Below, piece after piece: positions 3,671-28,099 of a stretch of 64,000 nt of DNA. The DNA comes from a virus. Under the pieces are notes generated by a model. It searched no databases, was not told where the DNA came from, and was given only the letters and a program-made list of their open reading frames with translations. Each line of letters starts with the position of its first letter. The first letter of the stretch is position 1. Location of the stretch: the IMG/VR virus record IMGVR_UViG_3300042914_002952, positions 1 to 64,000 of that record; one strand, given 5' to 3'. A program made the position numbers and the translations under genes.

Positions 3671-6076
3671 ATGCCATTTAGTACAGGATATTTTAAACAA
3701 CAAACCAAAGATTACATATTAAATAAATACGATAAGTCTATTAAAATTTTAGATGTAGGTGCGGGTGCAGGTGCATATTATGATATGTTACATAATGAAG
3801 GGTACAGTAACTTAGATTGTGTTGAAGTTTTTTCTAATTACGTTAAAGATTATAACTTAACTGAAAAATATAAAAAAGTGATAATTGGTGACATAACTAA
3901 ATTAGACATTGATTTCGATGAATATGATTTGATTATTTTTGGTGATGTTATAGAACATATAGCCTTAGAAGATGCTAAATTGTTGTTAAATAAAATTAAT
4001 CGTAGCGATGTTATTATAGGTGTCCCATTTAATTCTCCTCAAGGAATCCACTTTGAAAATGAATATGAAATTCATTTACAGGATGATTTAACATTTATTA
4101 ATTTTTTTGAACGTTTTGAGGGATATAAACCATTTTGTTTAAGATTTGATTATGGTTTATTTGTTAAAGGAGATAATAACACTATTTTTCTTGAAACACA
4201 ACAATCTTCGATACCAGAAACATATCAAAGTTTTATTAACTCTAATTTTAATGATTACATTATTAGTGATATTAATGATATTGATAATATCATATTATTA
4301 AAAAATCAAATACAATCTTTATCTCAAGAAGAAAAAACTAAATTATTTAATTATTTATCAAAACCAACTATAGAAGTAATCAATAAAGATTTAACAATAG
4401 TAACAGGATTATGGAATATAAATCGTCCCGGTAGAGATTTTGACCATTATATAGAACATTTTAAAAATTTTTTGGATATACCTGTTAACATGTTTATTTA
4501 TATTTCTAAAGAATATGAATATTTGGTTTGGGAAAAACGTTCTAAAGAAAATACATTTGTTAAACTTTATGAATTAGATGATATAAAAAATGACATATAT
4601 AAACCACATTGGGATAAAACTCAAAATATAAGAACTAACCCTGATTGGTTAGACCAAGCTGGTTGGTTGTCAGGGTCACCGCAAGCGGTTTTAGAATATT
4701 ATAATCCGATAGTACAATCAAAAATGTTTTTATTACATAGTGCGACGATTTGGAATCCTTTTAACACTGAATATTTCTTTTGGTTAGATGCTGGTATTAC
4801 TAATACCGTACCACATGGTCATTTTGTTGGAAATAAAGTATTAGATAAATTAACAGAAATCGGTAACCCATTTTTATTCTTAAGTTATCCGTATGAGGCT
4901 AATACTGAAATTCATGGATTTACGTTTAGTGAAATGAATAAAATCGCGGGAACCAAAGTCGAATATGTATGTAGAGGTGGCTTATTTGGTGGACATAAAC
5001 AACAAATAAACGAAGCGAATGCAACATACTACTCATTATTAACGAACACACTAAATACGGGATATATGGGTACGGAAGAAAGTATATTTACTTTAATGTC
5101 CTATTTAGAACCCCACATTTACAAAAGATTTGAATTAGACGGTAATGGATTGATTGTGAAATTTACACAAGCGATAATAGATAATAATATTAAAATTATC
5201 GAAACAAAACTACCATCGATTTCTAAAAATTTTATTAAATATACAGATAGAGACGTTGAGAAAGTTAAAACAAATTTATACATTTTAACTTTTAATTTTC
5301 CTGAACAAGTATTGCATACCATAGAGTCGATGAAAAAGACATCAGAGTGGTTAACTAAACCTCATTTAGTTTTATTAGATAATTCAACAACTGAAGAGGT
5401 TAGAAGTGAAAATAGAAAAATTGCCGAAGAGTATAATTTTGAATACATTAGTTTAGAGGGTAATACGGGTATATGTGGTGGTAGACAATCAGCTGCAGAA
5501 CATTTTCATAATTCAGATGCTGACTTCATGTTTTTCTTTGAAGATGATATGACAGTTAATCCACCCGAATTAGAAGGACAATTTTGTAGAAATGGATTTA
5601 GAAAATACATACCAAATCTCTACAATTTAGTGCACAGAATAATGTTAAAAGAAAAATTTGATTTTCTTAAATTATCGTTTACTGAAGTTTATTTTGATAA
5701 CGATAAACAATGTTCTTGGTACAATGTCCCACAAAATATTAGAACAAGAGATTGGCCACATTACGATAAACTACCTGTAACAGGTTTAGACCCAAATGTA
5801 CCCCTAACTAATTTCAAAAATATTAGAAGTATGGATGGGTTATCTTACATTGATGGTGAAATTTATTATGCAAACTGGCCGATGATTGTAAGTAAAGAAG
5901 GTAATTATAAAATGTTTATTGAAACAACTTGGGCTCACCCATTTGAACAAACTTGGATGTCGTATATGTATCAATTGACAAAAGAAAATAAACTAAAACC
6001 GGCGGTGTTATTGGCATCACCAATTTGGCATGATAGAATTAAACACTATCAACCAAATGAAAGAAGAGAAAACTAA
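3671..6076 (+). CDS. Three-domain methyltransferase / HtrL-YibB-like / GT2 fusion protein
   Basis: 801 residues with three recognisable segments. Residues 1-170 are a class I SAM methyltransferase: ILDVGAGAGAY is motif I and IIFGDVIEH is the following acidic strand. Residues about 235-500 resemble the HtrL/YibB (WlaTC-like) glycosyltransferase family: it opens with LTIVTGLWNINR and has FFWLDAGI as a DxG-type acidic motif. Residues about 535-801 are a GT2-like GT-A domain, with NTGICGGRQ and FFFEDDM as the nucleotide-sugar and metal-binding site. One chain therefore appears to methylate and to add two sugars. It sits between the GT pair and gmd, and ATG at 3671 follows a 60-base gap without a clear terminator. 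Confidence 0.7.
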   Translation: MPFSTGYFKQQTKDYILNKYDKSIKILDVGAGAGAYYDMLHNEGYSNLDCVEVFSNYVKDYNLTEKYKKVIIGDITKLDIDFDEYDLIIFGDVIEHIALEDAKLLLNKINRSDVIIGVPFNSPQGIHFENEYEIHLQDDLTFINFFERFEGYKPFCLRFDYGLFVKGDNNTIFLETQQSSIPETYQSFINSNFNDYIISDINDIDNIILLKNQIQSLSQEEKTKLFNYLSKPTIEVINKDLTIVTGLWNINRPGRDFDHYIEHFKNFLDIPVNMFIYISKEYEYLVWEKRSKENTFVKLYELDDIKNDIYKPHWDKTQNIRTNPDWLDQAGWLSGSPQAVLEYYNPIVQSKMFLLHSATIWNPFNTEYFFWLDAGITNTVPHGHFVGNKVLDKLTEIGNPFLFLSYPYEANTEIHGFTFSEMNKIAGTKVEYVCRGGLFGGHKQQINEANATYYSLLTNTLNTGYMGTEESIFTLMSYLEPHIYKRFELDGNGLIVKFTQAIIDNNIKIIETKLPSISKNFIKYTDRDVEKVKTNLYILTFNFPEQVLHTIESMKKTSEWLTKPHLVLLDNSTTEEVRSENRKIAEEYNFEYISLEGNTGICGGRQSAAEHFHNSDADFMFFFEDDMTVNPPELEGQFCRNGFRKYIPNLYNLVHRIMLKEKFDFLKLSFTEVYFDNDKQCSWYNVPQNIRTRDWPHYDKLPVTGLDPNVPLTNFKNIRSMDGLSYIDGEIYYANWPMIVSKEGNYKMFIETTWAHPFEQTWMSYMYQLTKENKLKPAVLLASPIWHDRIKHYQPNERREN

Positions 6077-13210: not shown

Positions 13211-13246
13211 CTTTGTACTTATCGGAAAGTACAAAAAGTTAGCCAG

Positions 13247-13664
13247 TGGAGATGGGCGGAATTGAACCGCCGTCCACCCCGAGAAATCATAAATGGACTA
13301 CATGCTTATTCAATTAGTTCACAACTGACAAATAAATGGTTCCTATTTTGACATTGTTACCAATAACTGTGTCGAATTCACTTTTACCACTTTCGTGGAT
13401 TTACAGGTAGTACTCTGAACGAGACCCTTGACACTTTAGGTTGTATCACACCTTAAAGACTTCTGTTTCTAGGTTATTTGTCTCCCGACCCATTGATAGA
13501 TTCGCCTAGGCTACTGCTACCTTGGAAGAAGCGAGGATACCCGCAATTTCCATGTTGTTATAAACGTTGCCGCTTAATTTGTACCATCATTGATTATGGT
13601 CATAGATGATGTTTGACCGCATGCCCATTTAACATTTACACGTGTGTCGATTCCTTTCATCCCC
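13247..13664 (-). ncRNA. ssrA: tmRNA (SsrA)
   Basis: A 418-nt minus-strand RNA. The 5' end GGGGATGAAAGGAATCGACA and 3' end CATCTCC-A form a 7-bp tRNA-like acceptor stem. The T arm GGACGGCGGTTCAATTCCGCCC is intact, and CCA is not encoded. A tag frame inside reads through ATG GAA ATT GCG and ends SSKVAVA with TAG at 13506-13508. That C-terminus of small hydrophobic residues is expected for a degradation tag, although it is not the usual ALAA ending. The exact resume codon cannot be fixed by eye. tmRNA rescues stalled ribosomes together with SmpB; no smpB is seen here, so host SmpB is presumed. A host-type promoter lies upstream and a terminator downstream. Confidence 0.9.
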
Positions 13665-13698
13665 AAAATTTCAAAGAACAAAAAATTGTTATTTGTGA

Positions 13699-13738: not shown

Positions 13739-13767
13739 AAAAAAAAAGGTTAGAATTTTCTAACCTT
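13739..13767 (-). terminator. Terminator of the large structured RNA
   Basis: Minus strand: 10-bp stem AAGGTTAGAA / TTCTAACCTT with a 2-base apparent loop, followed by a run of T. Marks the 3' end of the ~940-nt RNA. Confidence 0.8.
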
Positions 13768-14690
13768 AATTAATTGTTGAGGGCCTTTCGACTCTTTGCT
13801 CCACCACTTGATTTTAAATCAAGAAAAAAAAAACACTGAGATTACATGTTTTATTAGTTGACTTTAAAAGGATTATTGTTTCCCTTTATATCCACAACCT
13901 TTTGAGTTGTACCAACCAGTGACGGCCAATTAGATTAACCAATCCTTGAGTCATCGGATACTCTCTCAATACTAATCACTCCTCGAGAATGCCTTCCCAA
14001 TTAACCCTTGCGGGGTTAGAGGACTTTCTTAAAAATCGTATCGGGCTTGGGACCCTCTACGGCAATGAACGTTTCATTACTAAGTAGTCACCTGTTTCCG
14101 ACGACTGATGAGCACTTTTCCTTTTTATTAGATTTTGTTAATCAAAATAACAAGTTTTTTGGTTTGCGGATTATGAAGGTAGTGGCTCATCGACCAGCCA
14201 TGTCATCTTTTGAACAACACGATACTAAACTACCCTCTGAAATCTCCCGATTTCCATATTTTTGGACTCCTTCAAGAAAAGAACCTTGGTAGGTTCAAAT
14301 CAAGGACAATAACAGCACCACCTGTACAAAGTCATACCTTTCGGTTTTAAGATTCCCATCATATTGAATCACGCGATTACATAGTTGGATGACTATGTTT
14401 CTCACATAAATCCTACGAGTTATTCTTATTGGTGTTCCCACCTCAAATGAAGGACCCGCATCCCCCATTCGTTTTACCACTTTCACTACAGTGTCACCCT
14501 CGTTACTCAAGGTTAAACGATATCTCGTTTGTCTACTCGAGCTCTCTTTCGAAAGCCGCAACTCATCTAACCGAGTGAGTCACTTTATACCACTTTCGTG
14601 GTTTATTTAAGGACCATAGACGGCCCTATTTTTAAATTTTCAAAGAACGATTGATTTTTCAAATCATGGTCTAAACCATAAGTATCAAAT
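13746..14690 (-). ncRNA. Giant structured noncoding RNA, candidate GOLLD (or ROOL) class
   Basis: About 940 bases on the minus strand between a host-type promoter and a terminator, with no credible protein frame in either direction. The sequence is GC-richer than its surroundings. It is full of short stems with GNRA loops, for example ACCACGAAAGTGGT at 14589-14602 and AACCCCGCAAGGGTT at 14003-14017, plus others with CGAAAG loops. Size, ornate folding, phage origin and position beside tmRNA and tRNAs match what is known of GOLLD RNAs (roughly 800 nt or more, often near tRNAs in phages); ROOL is shorter, near 580 nt. It is not 16S/23S rRNA, RNase P or tmRNA as far as I can see. Class assignment is from setting and style; a covariance-model search is needed. 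Confidence 0.7.
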
Positions 14691-14696
14691 CTTTTA

Positions 14697-14727
14697 CAAA
14701 GATACGAAAGAAATCAATACAAGTCAA
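14697..14727 (-). promoter_or_regulatory. Bacteroidota-type promoter of the giant RNA
   Basis: Minus strand CTTG (TTG at 14725-14727), 20 bases, then TATCTTTG (14697-14704), a full match to TAnnTTTG. Predicted transcription start near 14690. Confidence 0.7.
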
Positions 14728-14758: not shown

Positions 14759-15220
14759 TTAAAGTCTCACTAAATGATTGGCTCCGTAGGTAGTCATAGC
14801 CCCATTGTGTTTGTATCTAACCTTATATCCCATACCTTGAACCAAACCAACAGCCTGTCTTAATACCTTGTTTGACCTAAACTTTGGGTCTGGGTTTAAA
14901 TCGATATCAATCCACGTTACTTTAGGTAAATCGTTATTTCTTAAAAACTCAGCAACTTCTATGGCTTTCCAAACTTCATTAATTAATCTAACTGACATCT
15001 CTTTTTCAAATGGTGTGGTTTCTTTTGTGCACAAAATATGGGCACCTTTACCTTTCATGTATAAAGCGATAACAGTACCGTACACCGTTTTAAAATTACC
15101 AAATGATTGAGAATCTGACCCAATTAATATTTCGGTGTCAGGTTTTTCTAATAAAAAATTTCTTATATATTCTATTATATTATCTATCGGTATTCCGTGT
15201 AGTGTTTTAAAATTTTTCAT
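14759..15220 (-). CDS. YkuK-like RNase H-fold protein
   Basis: 153 residues. A beta strand with GSDSQ near residue 38-42 is followed by alternating strands. A WIDIDLNPD tract appears near residue 103-111, and a C-terminal KHNGAMTTYGANH. This matches the DUF458/YkuK family, predicted to have an RNase H-like fold with acidic residues at the SDSQ and IDID strands. Biochemical activity of the family is not established. It lies downstream of the tRNAs and upstream of the giant RNA on the same strand, so a role in RNA processing is attractive but unproven. A TATTTATA motif lies 9 bases upstream of its ATG. Confidence 0.7.
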   Translation of the reverse strand: MKNFKTLHGIPIDNIIEYIRNFLLEKPDTEILIGSDSQSFGNFKTVYGTVIALYMKGKGAHILCTKETTPFEKEMSVRLINEVWKAIEVAEFLRNNDLPKVTWIDIDLNPDPKFRSNKVLRQAVGLVQGMGYKVRYKHNGAMTTYGANHLVRL

Positions 15221-15237: not shown

Positions 15238-15240
15238 TAG

Positions 15241-15312
15241 TAGGCCCACCTAGACTCGAACTAGGAATAACAGATTAGAAATCTGTGGTTATATCCCTTT
15301 AACTATGGGCCC
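15241..15312 (-). tRNA. tRNA-Arg (anticodon TCT)
   Basis: 72 nt. Acceptor stem GGGCCCA / TGGGCCT with discriminator A, anticodon arm ACAGA-TTTCTAA-TCTGT, and T arm CCTAG-TTCGAGT-CTAGG. CCA is not encoded. It reads AGA, a dominant Arg codon in this AT-rich genome. Confidence 0.95.
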
Positions 15313-15319
15313 AACTTTG

Positions 15320-15404
15320 TACCACCGACCGGACTCGAACCGGTACGGGAATTACTCCCAACAGAGTTTAAGTCTGTATCGGCTACCAATTACGACACGA
15401 TGGC
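15320..15404 (-). tRNA. tRNA-Leu (anticodon TAA)
   Basis: 85 nt with the long variable arm of class II tRNAs. Acceptor GCCATCG / CGGTGGT, anticodon loop CTTAAAC (TAA) within an ACAGA/TCTGT stem, T arm ACCGG-TTCGAGT-CCGGT. Reads UUA, the main Leu codon here. Confidence 0.95.
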
Positions 15405-15415
15405 ATTTTTTTATA

Positions 15416-15446
15416 TAAAGATACACAAAAAACTAATGATTTCAAA
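15416..15446 (-). promoter_or_regulatory. Bacteroidota-type promoter of the tRNA-Leu/Arg pair
   Basis: Minus strand TTTG (15443-15446), 19 bases, TATCTTTA (15416-15423), about 11 bases before the tRNA-Leu 5' end. Confidence 0.6.
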
Positions 15447-15448
15447 TA

Positions 15449-15691
15449 TTAAATATAGTCTTCACACCATATCGGTGTTTTTTCTCCTACATATGAACCA
15501 GAAACATTAAATTCAAAGTATTCAACGGCATCCATTTCACTCATACCTTGTTTTGTCAGTACATCAATACACTTACTAACAGAATAGATTAATCTCATTG
15601 TTTTTGTTTCGATACCTATTATTGCATCGTCGAAACCGTCGGCCATTAAAATATCCTCATCAGGATAGATGTCTAAAATTTTTTGTATCAT
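15449..15691 (-). CDS. Hypothetical acidic protein
   Basis: 80 residues, acidic, between two tRNA pairs. The LMADGFDDAIIGIE tract near residue 15-28 is the kind of short conserved block seen in small phage proteins of unknown function, but I cannot name a family. No membrane helix or signal. Confidence 0.6.
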   Translation of the reverse strand: MIQKILDIYPDEDILMADGFDDAIIGIETKTMRLIYSVSKCIDVLTKQGMSEMDAVEYFEFNVSGSYVGEKTPIWCEDYI

Positions 15692-15710
15692 TTTTTAAAA
15701 ATATTTTTAG

Positions 15711-15784
15711 TACTCCCGATGGGACTCGAACCCACAAGCTTCCCCGTGAAAGGGGGATGTCCTAACCAGTTAGACGACAGGAGC
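15711..15784 (-). tRNA. tRNA-Glu (anticodon TTC)
   Basis: 74 nt. Acceptor GCTCCTG / CGGGAGT, anticodon arm TCCCC-CTTTCAC-GGGGA, T arm TGGG-TTCGAGT-CCCA. CCA not encoded. Reads GAA/GAG. Confidence 0.95.
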
Positions 15785-15802
15785 ATTGTTTCATAATTAA
15801 TG

Positions 15803-15875
15803 TGACCCTGGGCAGGTTCGAACTGCCGACCCATACATTAAAAGTGTATTGCTCTACCAACTGAGCTACAGAGTC
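15803..15875 (-). tRNA. tRNA-Lys (anticodon TTT)
   Basis: 73 nt. Acceptor GACTCTG / CAGGGTC, D arm AGCTCAGTTGGTAGAGC, anticodon arm ATACA-CTTTTAA-TGTAT, T arm GGCAG-TTCGAAC-CTGCC. The discriminator A is followed by CA, not a full CCA. Reads AAA, very frequent in this genome. Confidence 0.95.
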
Positions 15876-26033: not shown

Positions 26034-28052
26034 TTAGCTTCTTTTTTTAATTATTTTTATTTCACCGTCTTTAAACTTCAGTAAAATGTTTTGATTTTCA
26101 GACACCTCACCTCTTAGTATTTTTTCACTTAAAAAGTCCTCACACAAGTTTTGTATGATTCTCTTTACTGGTCTAGCCCCGAAATCTTCTTGGGTATTCA
26201 ATTCAGAAATCCTATCAACAATTGATGAATCAAATGAAACTTTATAATTTTTTAGTGTGAGTCTTTTTTTAAGTTTCTCTAATTCAAGTTCGATTATTTT
26301 GTGGATACTTTCTTTTACGAGAGGATTAAAACTAATGATATCATCCACCCGATTTAAAAATTCAGGATTAAAGTATTGCTTCAAAGATTTTTGAACAATT
26401 AATTTTTTTACTTCCTCATTTTGAGTATTACTAAAAGATGTTTCAAATCCGAGACCCTTACCAAAATCAGAAACTTTTTTTGCTCCAATGTTAGAGGTCA
26501 TGATAATTATTGCATTTGAAAAACTAACTTTCCTTCCAAAAGAATCTGTAAGGTGTCCTTCATCTAAAATTTGTAATAGTATATTGAACACGTCTTTATG
26601 GGCCTTTTCTATCTCATCAAATAAAACCACAGAAAAGGGGTTGTGTTTAATTTTTTCAGTCAACTGACCACCTTCATCATATCCAACATACCCAGGAGGT
26701 GCACCAATCAATTTTGCAACATTGTGTTTTTCCATGTATTCACTCATATCAACCCGAATAACTTTATTTGGGTCATTAAACAATATCTCTGCAATTGATT
26801 TTGCTAAGTAAGTTTTACCAACACCTGTTGACCCTAAAAAGATAAAGGAACCAATTGGTTTATTGGTGTCTTTAATTCCAACTCTGTTTCTTCGTATTGA
26901 TTTTGATATAATTGAGATTGCCTCATCTTGACCAATAACTTTAGATTTCAATTTTTCTTCTAAATTTAAAAGATTGTCAGTTTCAACAACATCAACTTTA
27001 GATATAGGAACACCGACAATTTGGGATACCATTTCATATACATCATCTATTGAAATTGGTATTTTACTATCTTTTTGTGTTTCCAACCATTTTTCTTTTT
27101 CTTCTTGTAGTTTTGATAAAACCTTTTTTTCTTCATCTCTTAACTTAGCCGCTTGTTCATATTGTTGATTTTTTACTACCTGAATCTTCCTCATTTTTAT
27201 ATCATCGGACTCTTTTTTAAGTTTTTCAATTACTTCAGGTATTTTAGAGTTTATTTTTTTATCGGAACCAAGTTCATCTAAAACATCAATTGCTTTGTCA
27301 GGAAATTGTCTATCTGTTATGTACTTTGAAGACAAGGTAACGATTGTAGATAAAACATCATCACTATAATGAACTTTATGAAAATCTTGATATGAATTTC
27401 TAAGATTTTTTAATATTTGAACTGTTTCATCGGCCGATGGTTCCTTTAAAACTATTTTTTGAAATCTTCGTACAAGTGCACCGTCTTTTTCAATGTTTTT
27501 TTTGTATTCATCAAAAGTGGTTGCACCAATACATTGAATCTCACCTCTAGCCAATGCGGGTTTTAATATATTGGCAACATCCATTGAACCACTTGCGTTA
27601 CCGGCACCGACCATCGTATGCATTTCATCAATAAACAATATTACATTTGGTTCATTTTGTAACTCATTTAAGATTGCTTTAATCCTTTCTTCAAACTGAC
27701 CCCTGTACTTTGTTCCTGCAACCAAAGACGTTAAATCCAACGATAATAATTTTTTATCCAATAGATTACTTGGACAATCTCCATTGACTATTTGTAATGC
27801 TAATTTTTCAACCAACGCCGATTTACCAACACCAGCATCACCAACAATTATTGCATTATTTTTTTTCTTTCGGGCTAAAATTTGGGCAATTCTTTTGACT
27901 TCTTTTTCTCTACCAACAACGGGGTCAATTTTACCTTCTTCCGCTAATTTATTTAAGTCCCTTGAAAAATTATCAAGAACCGGTGTAGTTGAACTTTTTT
28001 TTGTTTTTTTGGAACTCGATGGGTTCCCATCTTCGAAAAAATCTACTGACAT
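26034..28052 (-). CDS. clpC: ClpC-like AAA+ unfoldase lacking the N-domain
   Basis: 672 residues from ATG 28052. The first AAA+ module has Walker A GDAGVGKS (71-78), a Walker B ending FIDE, and a GAGNASGS loop. A middle region carries a UVR-type pair of helices (YEQAAKLRDEEKKVL) as in ClpC rather than ClpB. The second AAA+ module has GSTGVGKT, LFDEIEKAH and GARPVKR sensor 2. The usual Clp N-terminal repeat domain is absent; only a ~25-residue low-complexity tail precedes module 1. GLGFETSF near the place of the ClpP-docking IGF loop suggests it could dock on host ClpP. Transcribed from a host-type promoter, divergent from the Hsp20 gene. Confidence 0.88.
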   Translation of the reverse strand: MSVDFFEDGNPSSSKKTKKSSTTPVLDNFSRDLNKLAEEGKIDPVVGREKEVKRIAQILARKKKNNAIIVGDAGVGKSALVEKLALQIVNGDCPSNLLDKKLLSLDLTSLVAGTKYRGQFEERIKAILNELQNEPNVILFIDEMHTMVGAGNASGSMDVANILKPALARGEIQCIGATTFDEYKKNIEKDGALVRRFQKIVLKEPSADETVQILKNLRNSYQDFHKVHYSDDVLSTIVTLSSKYITDRQFPDKAIDVLDELGSDKKINSKIPEVIEKLKKESDDIKMRKIQVVKNQQYEQAAKLRDEEKKVLSKLQEEKEKWLETQKDSKIPISIDDVYEMVSQIVGVPISKVDVVETDNLLNLEEKLKSKVIGQDEAISIISKSIRRNRVGIKDTNKPIGSFIFLGSTGVGKTYLAKSIAEILFNDPNKVIRVDMSEYMEKHNVAKLIGAPPGYVGYDEGGQLTEKIKHNPFSVVLFDEIEKAHKDVFNILLQILDEGHLTDSFGRKVSFSNAIIIMTSNIGAKKVSDFGKGLGFETSFSNTQNEEVKKLIVQKSLKQYFNPEFLNRVDDIISFNPLVKESIHKIIELELEKLKKRLTLKNYKVSFDSSIVDRISELNTQEDFGARPVKRIIQNLCEDFLSEKILRGEVSENQNILLKFKDGEIKIIKKRS

Positions 28053-28067
28053 ATTTTGTTTTTTATA

Positions 28068-28099
28068 CAAATATAAGGGATTTCATGATAAAAAACAAA
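28068..28099 (-). promoter_or_regulatory. Bacteroidota-type promoter of the clpC-like gene
   Basis: Minus strand TTTG (28096-28099), 20 bases, TATATTTG (28068-28075), 15 bases before the ATG. Confidence 0.7.

Follow-up and report, generated by a model that had tools for sequence, protein, structure and literature searches.

A boxA-like leader element precedes a GOLLD RNA gene in a T4-like phage and may bring rRNA-type antitermination to its transcription

The window (the whole 64,000-nucleotide stretch of DNA analyzed here) is part of a 121,302-base IMG/VR virus record and contains, between a tmRNA gene and an open reading frame (ORF), roughly 940 bases that a sequence-only reading took for a giant structured phage RNA. 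The locus raises two questions: to which family does this RNA belong, and how would a phage have so long an untranslated RNA transcribed to its end? Our answer to the first is the known GOLLD family; for the second, we propose that a boxA-like leader brings rRNA-type antitermination to the gene.

A complete GOLLD gene beside phage tRNA and tmRNA genes

The features of the locus are as follows.

13246-13664, minus strand: tmRNA gene with tag GNVYNNMEIAGILASSKVAVA, neighbor of GOLLD
13671-13679, minus strand: boxA-like GTTCTTTGA, 15 nt before the tmRNA (identified by motif comparison)
13739-13767, minus strand: intrinsic terminator (stem 13767-13748, nine T at 13747-13739)
13768-13832, minus strand: 3′ tail past the Rfam model, composed of a hairpin, TGGTGGA, and a second hairpin (TGGTGGA comparison)
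13833-14237, minus strand: GOLLD 3′ domain, Rfam RF02032 (model positions 1-416 of 416, 314.5 bits)
14238-14639, minus strand: GOLLD 5′ domain, outside the Rfam model (recognized in relatives by nhmmer; of 108 predicted pairs, 79 have two-sided changes)
14640-14648, minus strand: GTTCTTTGA, the boxA-like element in the leader of GOLLD (motif counts against shuffles)
14664-14681, minus strand: leader hairpin TTATGGTTTAGACCATGA, between promoter and boxA (folding against shuffles)
14697-14727, minus strand: Bacteroidota-type promoter (TTG at 14727-14725, TATCTTTG at 14704-14697)
14759-15220, minus strand: upstream ORF, matching phrog_11311 of unknown function
15240-15875, minus strand: four tRNAs, neighbors of GOLLD

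The minus-strand element is a complete GOLLD gene and a member of the known family. In the Rfam covariance search of the stretch, GOLLD alone exceeded its gathering score (150), by more than twofold and with a single match in the record, and the only other match lay below threshold. The earlier preference for GOLLD over ROOL is therefore upheld by a full-model match, which also excludes the alternative of a new class of giant RNA. ROOL (RF03087), which shares the size class and the phage setting, was absent from the matches of the stretch up to an E value of 1, and neither the record nor the 35 records searched gave a match to it, with control genomes likewise giving none. The RNA RsaA matched over the tail and terminator at 25.4 bits (gathering score of 50; E = 0.085), a sub-threshold score that was taken as chance.

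The predicted folding energy of the 945-nt minus strand is −278.3 kcal/mol, compared to −231.4 ± 9.4 kcal/mol for 20 dinucleotide shuffles (z = −5.0). The homologues were aligned in 42 rows, dereplicated to 30 with the window included, and the pairing that the sequence-only reading expected to covary does so: 152 of 210 pairs have changes on both sides. In total, 97.0% of cells are paired, versus 79% when partners are shuffled among sequences and 38 to 44% when they are slid by 1 to 3 columns. Covariation is strong in both domains, which behave alike, and 96.7% of cells in the 5′ domain (∼400 nt) are paired, versus 80% in shuffles.

GOLLD env-38 was shown by cryo-EM to assemble into a 14-copy RNA cage, and a GC/CG switch in its self-kissing loop L21a (bridge B8) is given as evidence for the cage bridges, according to PMC12286853. 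The window's RNA resembles env-38 in its full 3′ domain and its phage setting beside tRNAs and a tmRNA; for the 5′ domain, the likeness is one of similar length. A hairpin loop of the 3′ domain reads CGCAA in 27 of the 30 aligned sequences and GTCGA in 2 and is missing in 1. This switch resembles that of env-38, and from the resemblance we infer that the loop is the one forming bridge B8. Assembly of the window's GOLLD into a 14-mer cage is predicted, and the loop switch seen is compatible with one bridge. One relative, L070, does not have the hairpin of the GC/CG switch (alignment columns 946-961) and may lack one cage contact.

To collect relatives, we searched viral contigs for the upstream ORF and for two DNA patterns of the 3′ domain, which yielded at least 284 loci. 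In these, an iterated profile recognized the 3′ domain in at least 38 places (the window counted twice), and a scan with a pattern of the 5′ domain added further loci. The boxA-like motif was used in none of these scans, and no GOLLD loci of Firmicutes or actinobacteria knowingly entered the set. All picked relatives scored above the Rfam gathering score (17/17 and 7/7, 24 in total). At upstream-ORF relatives without an nhmmer GOLLD, Rfam found GOLLD in 0 of 16 stretches. Searching in full 14 virus records with upstream-ORF relatives, among them L038 with a GOLLD match already, gave GOLLD in 3, and bacterial genomes with such relatives gave 0/2. GOLLD was also found in 0/198 genomes of the phylum, a count of little weight given that stricter filters were applied and that control genomes gave none too. 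The same holds for the controls of three phages with related head proteins, namely, Flavobacterium phage immuto, Rhodothermus phage RM378, and huge phage LR756508, in which GOLLD was found in 0/3.

Several loci bear observations of their own. In Acinetobacter phage AM24 (L404:2362-3151), GOLLD lies unannotated within a tRNA array, and the same stretch of phage Ab15 is annotated with small hypothetical proteins, probably spurious ones. Freshwater-1 RNA (RF02979) occurs among phage tRNAs at L005:1153-1214, L012:1590-1652, and L025:122-184, loci at which no GOLLD was found. In L037, a group I intron (181-380, 60.7 bits) is followed after ∼1 kb by a GOLLD 3′ domain. On the plus strand of L126, an 83-nt stretch (5274-5356), ∼410 nt before the GOLLD 3′ domain, matched the whole tmRNA model at 51.8 bits (gathering score of 47); it has room for the tRNA-like part only, with no tag region, and was not called by ARAGORN.

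The window's GOLLD lies in a phage setting near tRNAs. That the phage is T4-like, as had been supposed from the letters, is supported: the head protein of the record matches phrog_138 (major head protein), which we take to be the T4 gp23 group, and relatives of the protein carry the label gp23. Its nearest named relatives belong to Flavobacterium phages (40.7% identity, 280 bits) and a Microcystis phage (41.3%, 297 bits), and the same two groups are nearest for the terminase (205 to 206 bits and 212 bits, respectively). Protein likeness is divided as to the host, with the Microcystis phage slightly higher in bits. The earlier assignment to a Bacteroidota host stands as likely, judging by the forms of the promoter and the boxA-like element and with Flavobacterium phages among the nearest cultured relatives; the slightly higher bits of the Microcystis phage count against it. 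An ATP-dependent protease gene (26034-28070, minus strand) is nearest by rank to genes of the huge phages LR756502 and LR745206 (∼53% identity), both of which carry GOLLD 2 to 6 kb from the protease gene.

Promoter, leader hairpin, and terminator of the gene

The promoter and the boxA-like element are conserved and keep their positions among the relatives, as does, less strictly, the terminator. TTG plus TANNTTTG at this spacing, a layout that we take to be that of a Bacteroidota promoter, precedes the RNA in 24 of the 30 dereplicated sequences, including the window, compared to 0.3% of shuffled leaders. In the window, the layout is formed by TTG and TATCTTTG, the consensus promoter noticed earlier, and transcription of GOLLD probably starts at about 14690. 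Folding of the 45 nt on the 5′ side of boxA reaches the most stable 5% of shuffles in only 17/30 sequences, of which the window is one.

At the other end of the gene, the stem and T run form the clear terminator that had been described, and a hairpin-plus-T site is present at most 260 nt after the RNA in 23/30 sequences by a loose scan without a shuffle control. The seven sequences without a proposed terminator include L264, in which a tRNA comes next. TGGTGGA occurs within 110 nt in 9/30 sequences and in L264 is part of a tRNA. The tail in which it lies (13768-13832) also occurs in near relatives and is similar to the 5′ part of a tRNA-Leu, and a real tRNA occupies that place in L264; the tail may be a tRNA remnant.

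The complete transcription unit claimed by the sequence-only reading thus extends from the promoter (14727-14697) to the terminator (13767-13739), and the interval that it had assigned, 13739-14727, runs from the −33 element through the end of the T run. The predicted transcript is ∼950 nt. The window's GOLLD differs from env-38 in having a conserved promoter and terminator that mark its ends, an extra 3′ tail that it shares with near relatives, and the boxA-like leader; PMC12286853 was not among text matches for boxA plus GOLLD.

The boxA-like motif before GOLLD and other stable RNA genes

The alignment rows were chosen to begin at the motif, and its conservation was therefore counted on the loci. 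At the expected place, GTTCTTTGA was present in 24 of the 26 loci with enough upstream DNA (window included) and GTTCTTT[GA]A in 25 of them; the background is 0.27 to 0.31% of shuffles and 0.007 to 0.012 matches per 170 nt elsewhere in the loci. A recount of all viral and phage loci gave 52 loci with 40 distinct 3′ domains, 30 of which have the motif at most 560 nt upstream. Four are cut off, such that the motif precedes 30 of 36 distinct assessable GOLLDs, including the window, and 6 are without it. Many of these loci belong to related phages, and the 36 are not 36 independent events. Contig L060, first placed among five cut or partly matched loci, was counted as assessable on its full Rfam match and is motif-free in 700 nt upstream. 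The other GOLLDs without the motif are those of metagenomic contig L126, huge phage LR756502 (L407), and three Acinetobacter phage records. GOLLD as such consequently does not need the motif. Where a promoter −7 element was seen (26/30), the motif lies 16 to 94 nt past it, and it precedes a conserved segment of the 5′ domain by 34 to 85 nt, variable distances as expected of a protein-binding signal.

The same core occurs in rRNA leaders of the likely host phylum, and in the GOLLD leader it is sited downstream of the promoter. A scan of bacterial genomes for Bacteroidota-type 16S starts gave at least 119 loci, 113 of them with at least 200 nt upstream and at least three with titles naming other phyla. 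Among the matches listed, the 350 nt upstream of 16S contained GTTCTTTGA in 41/113 (shuffles, 0.35%) and GTTC[TA]TT[GA]A in 69/113 (shuffles, 1.3%), leaving 44/113 without this core. The motif-to-16S distance among these listed matches has a median of 118 to 125 nt and is mostly about 100 to 145 nt. A longer motif (core plus WTTG) is present in 5/30 GOLLD leaders, versus 37/69 rRNA leaders among the matches listed. Three of nine 16S leaders inspected, all Flavobacteriaceae, contain GTTCATTGA. Because of its place before 16S rRNA and its fit to what we take to be the boxA consensus of Escherichia coli and Bacillus, the motif is here called boxA.

Among tmRNAs of the related phages, 5/9 have GTTCTTT[GA]A at most 110 nt upstream, and GCTCTTT[GA]A takes its place in two of the four that lack it. 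GTTCTTT[GA]A also lies at most 110 nt before 11/39 tRNA-Leu genes, compared to 3/297 other tRNAs. The spacing is 14 to 15 nt to tmRNA and 15 to 28 nt to tRNA-Leu. The motif was matched 54 times in 29 loci, with L002 counted separately from the window, to which it is identical here; 16 of these matches precede a tRNA or tmRNA by at most 110 nt, against 4/179 for exact permuted 9-mers (60 draws pooled).

These observations bear on what the motif is for. One alternative gives GTTCTTTGA a structural role in GOLLD: base paired to UCAAGGA in the 3′ domain, it would join the two domains, and its resemblance to boxA would be chance. RNAalifold does propose seven such pairs (alignment columns 3 to 9 with 1024 to 1030; 95.7% of cells paired), but none of the seven has compensatory changes, and shuffling the partners among sequences gives practically the same value (95.9%). 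Furthermore, a near-identical partner, UUAAGGA, persists in the motif-free L407, the only substitution that the motif shows among the aligned sequences, G to A in L158, disrupts the proposed pair, and the motif also precedes some tRNA-Leu, tmRNA, and 16S rRNA genes. Since compensatory changes are lacking, we regard this helix as a weaker explanation than antitermination and as unlikely. It is somewhat less probable again that the motif, although real and common to stable-RNA leaders, serves RNA processing or 5′-end stability. Before tmRNA and tRNA-Leu, the motif lies only 14 to 28 nt from the mature 5′ end, as would suit such a role; the much greater distance that prevails before 16S rRNA among the matches listed, and a sequence that presumably is boxA itself by the E. 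coli and Bacillus consensus, argue against it.

An ordinary GOLLD without a special leader, whose motif merely reflects common descent of the phages, is improbable. The relatedness of many loci, by which the 30/36 are not independent, speaks for it; yet sequences as little as 59% identical to the window keep the motif, the DNA around it diverges, and huge phage LR745206 has it after a tRNA gene, with no promoter seen before it. A protein-coding or other ordinary RNA gene can be dismissed: an 88-amino-acid (aa) ORF does lie inside the stretch on the minus strand but is intact only in the window and in L003, a relative with 96% identity (2/30 sequences), an 81-aa ORF on the plus strand is stop-free in 3/30, so that neither ORF of at least 60 aa is conserved among the aligned sequences, in line with the earlier judgment that no plausible protein is encoded, and the covariance match spans the full GOLLD model.

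A proposed role for rRNA-type antitermination

We propose, with a probability of roughly 70%, that the boxA-like leader serves transcription of GOLLD by the NusB/S10 antitermination used for rRNA. RNA polymerase would start at the Bacteroidota-type promoter near 14690 and transcribe first the short hairpin and then the boxA-like sequence, to which host NusB and ribosomal protein S10 would bind. The polymerase would thereby become an rRNA-type antitermination complex able to read through ∼900 nt of untranslated, highly structured RNA in which Rho could otherwise stop it. The complex may also tether the 5′ end while the remainder folds. The transcript would end at the terminator near 13740, and the GOLLD RNA would then assemble into a 14-copy cage, as env-38 does. 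Protein binding, antitermination, help in folding, and cage formation by this copy are each inferred.

According to PMC10250234, E. coli boxA binds NusB and S10 and is both necessary and sufficient for assembling the antitermination complex of rRNA operons. This complex makes transcription more processive and presumably aids folding; the elements after an rrn promoter are ordered boxB, boxA, boxC. According to PMC4807359, boxA partly rescues transcription across a 567-bp noncoding insert from Rho in a NusB-dependent manner. An untranslated phage RNA of ∼900 nt with a cage to fold into would be well served by such a complex. The same paper describes E. coli rRNA itself as largely Rho resistant without Nus factors, which counts against our proposal, as do the six motif-free GOLLDs, the rRNA leaders and the majority of tRNA genes without the core, the small number of GOLLD leaders with the longer motif, and the pairing with the 3′ domain that RNAalifold allows.

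The window's leader has the core of many Bacteroidota-type 16S leaders and, like the rrn leader, the order promoter, hairpin, boxA. It differs from the rrn leader in that the phage motif precedes a noncoding RNA, some tmRNAs, and some tRNA-Leu genes. A second known system is the lambda nut site (boxA, boxB, and N protein), in which the hairpin follows boxA. Phage use of boxA and Nus factors would be common to both systems, whereas in the window the hairpin comes before boxA and no match to a phage-encoded NusB or NusG was found in the record (controls were positive in 10/14).

A full-text search of a limited literature collection found no paper naming boxA together with GOLLD or ROOL, and among titles and the beginnings of abstracts in that collection no related paper joined boxA with bacteriophage tRNA genes and tmRNA. 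The RNA is an ordinary GOLLD in its identity, and the leader appears to be the new part. GOLLD expression increases during lysis (PMC12286853), and in Mycobacterium strain MaubT, where GOLLD belongs to a tRNA cluster, its expression is low (PMC6582537).

A bolder reading, to which we give about even odds, is that Bacteroidota phages put the host rRNA leader signal on GOLLD, tmRNA, and a tRNA-Leu, such that the cages would be made by an rRNA-type antitermination polymerase. The boxA RNA, being abundant, may additionally draw NusB and S10 from the host rRNA operons, linking GOLLD to a takeover of ribosome synthesis. This idea is suggested by work cited in PMC4807359, in which a transcribed lambda nut RNA ties up Nus factors and rRNA expression falls.

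GOLLD RNAs form RNA-only cages larger than ribosomes, and an rRNA-type signal offers a definite, testable mechanism by which so long an untranslated RNA could be transcribed. The conserved leader signal also marks the start of the GOLLD gene. If the proposal is true, GOLLD, some phage tmRNAs, and phage tRNA-Leu genes would share one mode of expression that borrows the rRNA machinery of the host.
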